From Archangium lipolyticum (GTDB taxonomy: Bacteria; Myxococcota; Myxococcia; Myxococcales; Myxococcaceae), in assembly GCF_024623785.1 (NCBI RefSeq), contig NZ_JANKBZ010000026.1, positions 62,001 through 126,000 of the forward strand: a DNA stretch of 64,000 bases, written 5' to 3'. Position numbers and translations under genes: made by a program. Position 1 is the stretch's first letter; every line of letters begins with the position of its first letter. The notes under the pieces were generated by a model that did no database searches, was not told the origin of the DNA, and was given only the letters and a program-made list of their open reading frames with translations. Below, in pieces: positions 58,689 to 62,550 of this stretch.

Positions 58689-60107
58689 TCAGCCTCGCTC
58701 ACCCTCCGCGTCCGGGTCGATTCCGTACTCCTTGATTTTGTACAGCAGGGCCCGATGGCTGATCTCCAACACCTCGGCGGCGCGGGTGCGATTGCCGCGA
58801 GTCCGGCGCAGGGCGGCGCGGATGTAGGACTCCTCCAGCTCACGGATGGCCTGCTTGAGGGACAGGTTGGCGTCGGGAGGGGGGTGCGTGGGGGTGGGGG
58901 AAGGTTGCGTGGTGGCCGGCGCGGGCGCGGTCCAGAGCCGCTCCGGCAGGTTCTGCGGGAGGATCAGCGCGCCCTCGGCCAGCAGGACCGCGCGCTCCAC
59001 GGCGTTCTCCAGCTCGCGCACGTTTCCCGGCCACGTGTAGGAGGCCATCAGCGCCTCGGCCTCGGGGCTGAAGCCCCGCACGGGCGGCTCGCGGTTGAGC
59101 TCGCGGTTGAAGCGCGCGAGGAAGGAGCGCGCCAGCAGGGGGATGTCGCTGGTGCGCTCGCGCAGGGGCGGCACCCGCACGTTCACCACGTTGAGCCGGT
59201 AGTAGAGGTCCTCGCGGAACTCGCCCCGCTCCACCAGCCGGCCCAGGTCGCGCAGCGTGGCGGCGATGACGCGCACATCCACCTTCTCCGCGCGGTTCTC
59301 TCCCACCGGGCGGATCTCCCCTTCCTGTAGCACGCGCAACAGCTTCACCTGGGCGGGAGGAGGCAGCTCTCCCACCTCGTCGAGGAAGAGCGTGCCGCCG
59401 TCGGCCTCGCTGAAGAGGCCCCGGCGGGCGGTGCGCGCGTCGGTGAAGGCGCCCCGGGCGTGGCCGAAGAGCTCGCTCTCGATGAGGCCCGCGGGGATGG
59501 CGCCACAGTTGACGGCGACGAAGGGCATGGCGGCCCGGGGCGAGCGCGCGTGCAGTGCCCGTGCGACGAGCTCCTTGCCCGTCCCGCTCTCTCCGGTGAT
59601 GAGGACCGTGGTGCCCACCGGCGCCAGCCGCTCCACCTGCCGCAGCACCACGCGAAGGGGCTCGCTCTCGCCGAGGATGCGCTCCACGGGCACGTCCCCG
59701 CCCACTCCCCGCAGGCGCCGGTTCTCGCGCAGCAGCCGCTCTCGCTCCTCCGCCTTGCGCAGGACGAAGACGATCTCCTCGGGCTTGAAGGGCTTGCGCA
59801 CGTAGTCGTACGCCCCGGCGCCCACCGCCTCGAGCGCCTGCTCCCGCGAGCCGTACGCGCTCATCACCACCACCGTCAGTCCCGGGTGCTCGGCGAGCGC
59901 CTGGCGCAGCACGGACAGGCCATCGCGCCGGGGCATGCGCACGTCACACAGCAGCACGTCGTAGCCACGCGCGGCCAGCTCCCGCAGCGCCTCCTCGCCG
60001 TCGGACACCGCACGCACCTCGTAGCCCAGCCCGGACAGCACCAGGGTGAGGACGTGGCGCACGGAGGGCTCGTCGTCGGCGACGAGGATGCTGCGGAAGA
60101 GGGCCAT
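58689..60107 (-). CDS. pilR2: NtrC-family response regulator (PilR2-like)
   Basis: 472 residues from the ATG at 60107; 12 earlier codons are open but precede the family start. Receiver domain 1-120 with phosphoacceptor Asp55 (LLCDVRMPRRDG) and Lys105. AAA+ domain 140-380 with Walker A GESGTGKE (Lys178) and Walker B GGTLFLDEVGEL. The sigma-54-contact loop reads GAFTDA (219-224) instead of GAFTGA. A Pro/Thr linker precedes a Fis-type helix-turn-helix at the end (GNRTRAAEVLEISHRALLYK). Place between pilM and the kinase gene matches Myxococcus pilR2. Its targets are unknown; pilM and pilA regions are candidates. Confidence 0.88.
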   Translation of the reverse strand: MALFRSILVADDEPSVRHVLTLVLSGLGYEVRAVSDGEEALRELAARGYDVLLCDVRMPRRDGLSVLRQALAEHPGLTVVVMSAYGSREQALEAVGAGAYDYVRKPFKPEEIVFVLRKAEERERLLRENRRLRGVGGDVPVERILGESEPLRVVLRQVERLAPVGTTVLITGESGTGKELVARALHARSPRAAMPFVAVNCGAIPAGLIESELFGHARGAFTDARTARRGLFSEADGGTLFLDEVGELPPPAQVKLLRVLQEGEIRPVGENRAEKVDVRVIAATLRDLGRLVERGEFREDLYYRLNVVNVRVPPLRERTSDIPLLARSFLARFNRELNREPPVRGFSPEAEALMASYTWPGNVRELENAVERAVLLAEGALILPQNLPERLWTAPAPATTQPSPTPTHPPPDANLSLKQAIRELEESYIRAALRRTRGNRTRAAEVLEISHRALLYKIKEYGIDPDAEGERG

Positions 60108-60157
60108 GGAGACACCCCAGAAGTAGCCCACTCCCGGGGACACGGCCAGATTCCGCC

Positions 60158-61279
60158 TCAGACGCCCGGCAGGCGGACGGAGAAGCGAGCACCGCCCTCC
60201 GGGACGTTCTCCACCGTCAGCCGTCCCCCCATCCCCTCGGCCAGGTGCCGCGACACGGCCAGCCCCAGCCCCGTGCCGTGGCCGGGCTCACGGGTGGTGA
60301 AGAAGGGCTCGAAGAGGCGCGGCATCACCTCCGGCGGGATCCCAGGGCCCGTGTCCTCCACCACCAGCAGCACGTCCCCTCCCCCACTCCGGGCGGAAAG
60401 CCGGACGACCCCCTCCCCCCCCATGGCCTGCACCGCGTTGAGCAACAGGTTGATGACGATCTGCGACAGCGGCCCGGAGTCCGCCCGTGCCAGCAGGCCG
60501 GGAGCGAGCTCGAGGACCAGCTTCACCCGCGAGAAGTCCCGCCCGGCCTTCACCAACTGCACGCACGTCTCCACCACGTGCCCCACGTCCACCGGCCCCA
60601 ACCGCTCCCGCCCCGGGCGGCCGATCTCCAGCAACCCCCGCACGATGCCGTCGATGCGCTGCACCTCATGATCGATGCGCGCGAGGTACTCCTGCACCTC
60701 GGGATCCTTCGTCCGGGCACCGGCCAGCGAGAGGTAGCCGAGGATGCCCGCCAGCGGGTTGCCGACCTCGTGGGCGACGCCCGCCGCGAGCCGCCCCACG
60801 GTCGCCAGCCGCTCCGTGGAGACGAGCTCGGTCTGCGCCAGGGCCAGACGGGCGTTGGCGGCGCGCAGCGCCTCCATCTGCTGCCGGGTGGTGTCCTGCT
60901 CCCGCTGGAGCACAGCCGCCATGCGGGAGAGCGCCCGCTGGATGCGCGAGAGCATCGGCCCCGCGCTCACCGGCATCGCCACGTCCAGCTCCAACCGCCC
61001 GAGCTGCTCCACCACCTCCTCGGTGCGCCGCAGGGGCCGGCCCACCATGAAGTCCAGCACCCCGTACGCCACGACGGTGAGCAGCACCAGATCCAGCCCG
61101 AGGAGGAACGGCAACGAGCCGAGCGTCCGCGCCAGCACCAGGGACTCGGGCGAGCCATCCGCCGCGCAGTGACGCACCGCCTCCATCAACGACAGGAGCG
61201 GCCGCTGCAGGGAGAGCCAGGTGAGGCCCGTGCCCACCACGCTGAGAAGGAAGGCGACGCTGGCGACCCGCCACTTCAT
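60158..61279 (-). CDS. pilS2: Membrane histidine kinase (PilS2-like)
   Basis: 373 residues. Two membrane helices at about 5-24 and 55-75 enclose a short periplasmic loop of about 30 residues, then a HAMP-like linker (78-130) and coiled coil. The HisKA box is VGRLAAGVAHEVGNPLAGIL with phosphoacceptor His170. The HATPase domain has LLLNAVQAMG, DTGPGIPPEV and GTGLGLAVS. All key residues are standard, unlike the two orphan kinases in this window. The gene ends 50 bases before the regulator and starts 16 bases after pilD, so the three read as one operon. Confidence 0.9.
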   Translation of the reverse strand: MKWRVASVAFLLSVVGTGLTWLSLQRPLLSLMEAVRHCAADGSPESLVLARTLGSLPFLLGLDLVLLTVVAYGVLDFMVGRPLRRTEEVVEQLGRLELDVAMPVSAGPMLSRIQRALSRMAAVLQREQDTTRQQMEALRAANARLALAQTELVSTERLATVGRLAAGVAHEVGNPLAGILGYLSLAGARTKDPEVQEYLARIDHEVQRIDGIVRGLLEIGRPGRERLGPVDVGHVVETCVQLVKAGRDFSRVKLVLELAPGLLARADSGPLSQIVINLLLNAVQAMGGEGVVRLSARSGGGDVLLVVEDTGPGIPPEVMPRLFEPFFTTREPGHGTGLGLAVSRHLAEGMGGRLTVENVPEGGARFSVRLPGV

Positions 61280-61295: not shown

Positions 61296-62348
61296 TCACG
61301 GCACTCCCGTCAGCAGGACGTCGATCGGCATTGGCAGCACCTCGCGCAGCCACGGGCCGAGCAGCATCACCTCGAGCGCGGCGAGCGCCAGCCAGGGACC
61401 GAACGGAATGTTGGTGGGGCCCGGGACCCAGTCGTCCTCGTCCTCATCCCCCTCCGCGTCCCCCCGGCCCTCGCCCCCGGTCCCCTCCTGCGCCGGGCTG
61501 GCGCTGGCGGAGTCCACCGAGGGCTCCCGTGCGTCGGGCGCCGGGGTGGGAGGCACCTCGGTGGAAACCCCGGGCGGCCCCGCGGCGCTTTCCGTCTCCA
61601 CTTCCGTCTCCGGCGCCGGTCCCGCCCGCCCGCGGAAGAGCAGCAGCAGCGAGCCCACCACCGCGCCCTGGAACGAGGAGAGGAAGATGACGCCGAGCAG
61701 CACCTTCCAGCCGAGGAAGGCGCCGATGAGCGCCAGCAGGAACTTGTCGCCCCCGCCCAGCGCCTCCTTCTTGAAGATCTTCTCCCCCAACCATTCCAGC
61801 GCCCAGAAGACGAAGAACCCGGCCGCCGCGCCGATGACCGAGGCGATCAGCCGATCCATGCCGATGGGCACCGACAGCACCACACCGGCGGCGATGCCCG
61901 GCAGGGTCAGCTCATGAGGGAGGATCCAATGCTCCAGATCGATGAAGGCCAGCGGCACCAGCACCATCACCATCACCAGGGCGGACACCAGCTCCGGAGT
62001 CCAACCGAAGCGCCGCTGGCTGGCGAAGAAGAGCAGCGCGGTGAGCAGCTCGATGGCCGGGTAGCGCCAGGAGATGGGCTGGCCGCAGGAGCGACAGCGC
62101 GCTCGCAATGCCATCCACGACAGGACTGGAATGTTCTCGTACCACGCGAGTTGATGCCCACACTTGGGGCAACGCGAGCGCGGCCGGACGATGCTCTGAT
62201 CGTAAGGCACACGGGCGATCACGACATTCAAGAAACTGCCGAAGAGCAGGCCCATGATGACGATCAGCGCCACGGCCGCTCCCTCCAACGCCTGAGGAGT
62301 CACGTTCTGCGTCCCTTCTTCCGCGAGGAGCTCCTGATCGCGCAGCAT
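61296..62348 (-). CDS. pilD: Prepilin peptidase PilD
   Basis: 350 residues. The zinc-type cytoplasmic loop has Cys60, Cys63, Cys85 and Cys88 (CPKCGHQLAWYENIPVLSW, CRSCG). The two catalytic aspartates are Asp137 (FIDLEHWILP) and Asp201 in the GGGDKFLL motif. About eight membrane helices are present. An unusual insertion at about 241-312, rich in Pro, Glu, Ser and Asp (ends DEDEDDWVPGP), splits the last helices before the conserved IPFGPWLA. It cleaves and N-methylates prepilins such as PilA, encoded 202 bases away on the other strand. Confidence 0.95.
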   Translation of the reverse strand: MLRDQELLAEEGTQNVTPQALEGAAVALIVIMGLLFGSFLNVVIARVPYDQSIVRPRSRCPKCGHQLAWYENIPVLSWMALRARCRSCGQPISWRYPAIELLTALLFFASQRRFGWTPELVSALVMVMVLVPLAFIDLEHWILPHELTLPGIAAGVVLSVPIGMDRLIASVIGAAAGFFVFWALEWLGEKIFKKEALGGGDKFLLALIGAFLGWKVLLGVIFLSSFQGAVVGSLLLLFRGRAGPAPETEVETESAAGPPGVSTEVPPTPAPDAREPSVDSASASPAQEGTGGEGRGDAEGDEDEDDWVPGPTNIPFGPWLALAALEVMLLGPWLREVLPMPIDVLLTGVP

Positions 62349-62382
62349 AGAGCCCGGGCGCGCACCGCGGGCGGACGATTCC

Positions 62383-62398
62383 TGTCACCCTGGTGACA
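62383..62398. promoter_or_regulatory. TGTCACC-N2-GGTGACA palindrome, candidate enhancer site for pilA
   Basis: A perfect inverted repeat with 7-base arms, 85 bases upstream of the pilA -24 element (about 110 bases from the expected start of transcription). This is the distance at which sigma-54 activators such as PilR bind. It contains TGTC half-sites, the core reported for PilR in Pseudomonas. The pilD start codon is 35 bases to its left. Confidence 0.6.
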
Positions 62399-62482
62399 AA
62401 AATTGGCACCTGACTGCCCATTCCGGGCACCCGGAGCGATGCAAGTCCTTGGATCCGCATCACGGGCCGGGTGGTTTGACCG

Positions 62483-62498
62483 TGGCACCGTTCGTGCT
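62483..62498 (+). promoter_or_regulatory. pilA: Sigma-54 promoter of pilA
   Basis: TGGCACCGTTCGTGCT matches the sigma-54 consensus (TGGCAC, five bases, T-T-G-C-A/T) with the GG and GC at exact spacing. Transcription should start near 62510, leaving a leader of about 40 bases. Myxococcus pilA is known to need sigma-54 and PilR. Confidence 0.85.
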
Positions 62499-62550
62499 AT
62501 TCCTCAGGACGGCTTCGGCCGCAACCCATCCTTCACCCGAAGGGACTCCC

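Follow-up and report, generated by a model that had tools for sequence, protein, structure and literature searches.

PilR control of pilA is textbook knowledge, and the PilR sites upstream of Pseudomonas aeruginosa pilA were reportedly described by Jin et al. in 1994. That system is said to combine an NtrC-like PilR, a sigma-54 pilin promoter and TGTC half-sites, all of which recur at the locus described here, whereas its published consensus is reportedly a single half-site and the present element is a doubled dyad whose inner spacer is fixed and whose seam is flexible. The upstream activating sequence of NifA is TGT-N10-ACA, and Fis/NtrC-type dyads have an A+T-rich centre. Myxococcus xanthus pilA requires PilR (PMC6211767). 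Another NtrC-like protein of M. xanthus, NmpR, recognises GCGCA-N5-TGCGC in two sites, S1 and S2, which likewise are 5-N5-5 dyads upstream of a sigma-54 promoter (PMC11841059); the half-site differs, the sites lie mostly 14–15 bases apart (5 at pilR) rather than the 5–8 found here, and NmpR does not bind pilA. A further enhancer-binding protein, Nla28, with the half-site CT[C/G]CG[C/G]AG, is reported to act at the same gene, M. xanthus pilA (PMC9765219), and PilR binding in P. syringae by HT-SELEX is mentioned in PMC7532196. A full-text search, whose coverage mostly excludes subscription papers, returned no paper defining a PilR binding site in myxobacteria. As a kind, PilR/NtrC enhancers serving sigma-54 promoters of pilin genes are already known. 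From sequence comparison we propose, with a probability of roughly 0.8, that the pilA control region is a two-site PilR enhancer serving the sigma-54 promoter of pilA.

The window, the whole 64,000-nucleotide stretch of DNA that was analysed, carries pilQ-P-O-N-M, pilR2, pilS2 and pilD in this order on the minus strand, with pilA next to them on the plus strand (Table 1). Within the cluster pilM was assigned by family match and the other pil genes were named from their sequences and the known gene order; the pilD product gave no NCBIfam match. Downstream of pilA and past the window lie a TPR-like gene and two ABC-transporter genes, followed on the opposite strand by PilR, about 2.8 kb past the end of pilA and just outside the window, and by PilS, PilC, PilT and PilB, named from their sequences and the known M. 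xanthus order. Additional pilin genes are present in the same genome.

Table 1. Features of the pilA control region and neighbouring genes (window coordinates).
Feature	Position	Strand	Remarks
pilR2, NtrC-like regulator	58689..60143	-	DNA helix ISHRALLYKIKEYGI, unlike that of PilR
pilS2, sensor histidine kinase	60158..61279	-	
pilD, prepilin peptidase	61296..62303	-	named by gene order and sequence; divergent from pilA
Left, promoter-distal candidate PilR dyad, GGACG-ATTCC-TGTCA	62373..62387	+	conserved 5-N5-5 dyad
Palindrome TGTCACC-CT-GGTGACA (TGTCACCCTGGTGACA)	62383..62398	.	inner half-sites of both dyads plus seam
Seam CCCTGG between dyads	62388..62393	.	G+C-rich; length 5–8 across relatives
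Right, promoter-proximal candidate PilR dyad, TGACA-AAAAT-TGGCA	62394..62408	+	A+T-only spacer
Sigma-54 promoter of pilA, TGGCACCGTTCGTGCT	62483..62498	+	GG/GC at the required 10-base spacing
Predicted pilA transcript start	62506..62509	+	inferred from the sigma-54 element, some 12 bases beyond the -12 GC
pilA, major type IV pilin, 217 aa	62551..63204	+	NF041775 typeIV_PilA_Myxo, E 8e-62, below the family cut-off

Two 15-bp imperfect dyads of the form YGNCR-N5-YGNCR lie upstream of pilA. The motif was first picked out by eye and scored afterwards. Of the 96 genomes of the family, 90 have an identifiable PilD, and 77 yielded at least 230 bases of usable sequence upstream of pilA, the other 19 yielding none. 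Tandem dyads reach a score of at least 22 of 24 in 71 of these 77 genomes, against 1.8% of 7,700 dinucleotide shuffles, and at least 23 of 24 in 65, against 0.34% of the shuffles. When the inner spacer was varied from 2 to 9 bases, a score of 23 was reached by 65/77 genomes at a spacer of 5 and by at most 13 at any other length. The shared plan, present in nearly all, is two 15-bp dyads that begin about 150–200 bases before pilA, followed by a sigma-54 site. Individual layouts are GGACGATTCCTGTCA-6-TGACAAAAATTGGCA in the window, CGACGAAAACCGTCA-7-TGACAAAAATTGGCA in genus g26, CGACAGTTATCGTCA-7-TGCCGAATTTTGTCA in g23 and TGCCCAAATTCGTCG-5-TGCCAAATTTTGTCG in g15, and the right dyad is more strictly conserved than the left. 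Six of the 77 genomes score below 22, among them G026, which has one perfect dyad before a pilin gene; G010 scores 21, G025, G024 and G113 score under 21, and the dyads of G014 (g10) are ambiguous. Elsewhere in the order, 28 regions from other families were scored and 15 came to 22 or more, a count obtained with looser gaps and without a shuffle control.

The spacing within and around the dyads follows distinct rules. The seam between them measures 5, 6, 7 or 8 bases in 10, 13, 47 and 4 of 74 genomes, respectively, while the inner spacers hold at 5. The two inner spacers are 74% and 96% A+T, in contrast to 20% for the seam, and this composition fits the centre of a Fis/NtrC-type dyad at each inner spacer and not at the seam. 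At least two dyads upstream of the promoter, with a fixed inner spacing of 5, is the arrangement of an NtrC-type upstream activating sequence. From the end of the dyads to the -24 element there are 72–77 bases in most genomes (74 in G001), 62–64 in g2, g5, g6 and g18, and 84–85 in g7 and part of g23, with 82 in one weak case. The clusters at 62–64, 72–77 and 82–85 bases are about one helical turn apart; since they reflect few independent changes, they are consistent with phasing and do not prove it.

The promoter that these dyads precede, described in the initial annotation as a near-ideal sigma-54 site, bears out that description. TGGCACCGTTCGTGCT matches 10 of the 12 positions of the sigma-54 consensus (TGGCAC-N5-TTGCW) and is the sole plus-strand site of such score in 64 kb, with four others on the minus strand. 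Downstream of the dyads a sigma-54 site of at least 9/12 occurs in 72 of the 74 scored genomes. The promoter listed in the literature for M. xanthus pilA, TGGCATG-N4-GTGCT, matches the site found in G109 and G110, and G109 also carries the pilS sigma-54 string reported for M. xanthus. As a separate observation, CGGCTTCGGCCG at 62509-62520, where the pilA transcript is predicted to begin, could form a tetraloop hairpin and is kept in most near relatives; a conserved 5′ leader hairpin at CGGCTTCGGCCG was dropped as a candidate, the folding not being alike across all nine sequences.

If the dyads are PilR sites, each 15-bp unit, close to TGACR-N5-YGTCA with an A+T-rich centre, would seat one PilR dimer. 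The two sites start 20–23 bases apart, about two helical turns, and so would place both dimers on the same face of the DNA. The paired dimers could then seed the ATPase ring, which would loop across about 74 bases to RNA polymerase-sigma-54 at TGGCAC-N5-GTGCT and open the pilA promoter.

That an NtrC-type activator acts here at a suitable distance from the sigma-54 promoter, as originally suggested, agrees with these data, and PilR is its most likely identity on present sequence comparisons. It is unlikely, but deserves first consideration, that a different enhancer-binding protein, such as PilR2, Nla28 or NmpR, occupies both sites. PilR2 is encoded beside pilD and is reported to be needed for pilus motility in M. 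xanthus, and the report of Nla28 acting at M. xanthus pilA (PMC9765219) also speaks for this alternative. PilR2 orthologues occur in 84 of the 96 genomes (E <= 1e-170) and PilR in 87 (E <= 1e-160). Three g11 genomes (G032, G080 and G081), one of them a single contig, have no PilR2 orthologue at this threshold yet retain the dyads and promoter together with a PilR of 85–86% identity; in G032 the pilS2-pilR2 pair is missing between pilD and pilM (L122). The dyads thus persist independently of PilR2, which is therefore not the favoured ligand, and the earlier inclusion of PilR2 among the proteins that might bind here is not supported. Among the 12 genomes without PilR2, G010 has the score of 21 given above, six are unscored, and both PilR and the dyads are missing from the small genomes G024 and G113. 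In G085, a 410-contig draft, the dyads are present and no PilR match was found at E <= 1e-160. The recognition helices differ as well: PilR here reads FRSFRYRL, Pseudomonas resinovorans PilR FRSMRYRL and PilR2 SHRALLYKI, and over the helix region PilR (LTFRSFRYRLAKHG) resembles its P. resinovorans counterpart (LTFRSMRYRLKKLG) and differs from PilR2 (ISHRALLYKIKEYG).

For the other two proteins the published data speak against binding at the dyads. The reported Nla28 pair, GTGCGCAC-N10-ATGCGTAG, overlies the sigma-54 promoter core, outside the dyads (PMC9765219); an exact copy of this pair is present in 2 of 77 genomes but not in the window. NmpR uses a different code and gave no shift of the M. 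xanthus pilA promoter. Some 86 bases ahead of pilA in L226 and L232, the published Nla28 pair overlaps the sigma-54 core, with ATGCGTAG lying inside TGGCATGCGTAGTGCT, so that mutating this half-site also alters the promoter.

Less probable still is that the 16-bp palindrome is itself the operator for one activator dimer, perhaps as a NifA-like TGT-N10-ACA site. The inverted repeat is indeed present, 84 bases upstream of TGGCACCGTTCGTGCT, and the sequence of the window alone favours it, because its 7-bp arms are perfect while the flanking dyads are imperfect (3/5 and 4/5 pairs). It fits TGT-N10-ACA to the letter, and a P. aeruginosa paper gives NifA-like elements and nearby GTCT as hallmarks of PilR sites. 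The 12.6 Mb genome contains a single exact copy of the palindrome. However, perfect 7-bp inverted repeats with loops of 0–10 bases number 116 in the window, or 0.36 per 200 bases, so the palindrome alone does not exceed chance and needs comparative evidence; a pattern-specific count allowing up to two mismatches (3 found, 0.27 expected) is biased by the choice of the pattern after it was seen, and was set aside. Comparison with relatives does not favour the palindrome. Its symmetry, taken as arms of at least 5, is kept in 12 of 74 scored genomes: the seam pairs 5/5 in all 11 genomes of g1, g4 and g11, against 1 of 63 elsewhere, and arms of this length appear in 0 of 8 genomes of g14/g15 and 0 of 44 of g17/g23/g26. 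The seam varies by one base within the window's own genus and shifts by up to three bases overall, and its spacer is G+C-rich. The match to the NifA sequence is thus limited to one clade and breaks down wherever the seam changes length, and variable spacing with poor conservation makes the palindrome improbable as the operator. Nor was it seen in 13 other pilin upstream regions (L117-L121, L123-L125, L133, L134 and three in L136), four of which have sigma-54-like sites (L125, L134 and two in L136).

In the preferred reading, a pair of PilR sites, the inverted repeat arises because one dyad ends in YGTCA and the adjacent dyad begins with TGACR. The initial annotation had placed the PilR site in the palindrome and looked to its conservation among relatives. 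PilR is retained as the most likely activator; the unit of binding shifts to the two flanking 5-N5-5 dyads, whose spacers hold across the family.

The least likely reading is that the element acts on pilD, either alone or together with the divergent pilA. It does lie between the two genes and nearer pilD in the window and many relatives. However, the pilD strand shows no sigma-54-like site within 62301-62550, and in six g23 genomes, where pilA lies about 3.4 kb from pilD, upstream of it and on its strand, the dyads precede pilA and none were seen before pilD. The element is therefore assigned to pilA, with which it stays where pilA lies away from pilD, and the suggested influence on both divergent transcripts finds no support for pilD. 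In G032 a second pilA with the same leader (L133) lacks the dyads; about 90 bases before this gene, additional sequence separates the -24 and -12 parts of its promoter, and the gene may be a silenced copy.

The pilD start is probably the GTG at 62303 rather than the ATG at 62348. The GTG and its ribosome site AAGGGACG are present in 10 of 11 loci checked; the upstream ATG is out of frame with the GTG in 7 of these 10, and one of the other three has a stop between the two. With the start placed at the GTG, the palindrome lies about 80 bases from pilD. A conserved TATGCT on the minus strand within 62301-62348 may be a -10 element.

The dyad code also recurs beyond the family. TGACR-N5-YGTCA was found in 18 of 113 pilin upstream regions from other bacteria and in 0 of 113 control stretches, with at most 1 among the 113 regions for any other spacer. 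By record title the 18 loci include Methylococcaceae, Roseateles, Ralstonia, Marinobacter, Alcanivorax and Candidatus Manganitrophus, and 13 of them fall among the 90 regions whose titles carry no myxobacterial or related label. We lean somewhat towards the view that TGACR-N5-YGTCA, in two copies 5–8 bases apart and phased to the -24 element, may be a general PilR code for type IV pilin promoters in Myxococcota, Pseudomonadota and beyond, of which the older NifA-like and TGTC descriptions would be partial views.

Within the family, the A+T-centred ideal dyad TGACRWWWWWYGTCA has 24 sites in the 96 genomes. Nine stand 136–171 bases upstream of a pilin gene's prepilin motif and 15 are not before a pilin gene. 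In G032 and G081, TGACGTTTTTCGTCA dyads precede lipoprotein genes, each dyad 64 bases ahead of a sigma-54 site (L305, about 1500; L343, about 1552), and these genes are possibly a further PilR target. Because 15 of the 24 perfect dyads lie off pilin genes, two of them near the lipoprotein sigma-54 sites, another regulator could share the code. A scan of the window genome for tandem sites matched perfectly at pilA alone. Allowing one mismatch added two weak sites, neither of them close to a sigma-54 site, and the control with the pattern reversed also gave two matches.

The twin dyads give the exact bases to change in the pilA control region and the means to separate PilR from PilR2. With a fixed code, genomes could further be scanned for PilR targets, among them the lipoprotein genes that look co-regulated.
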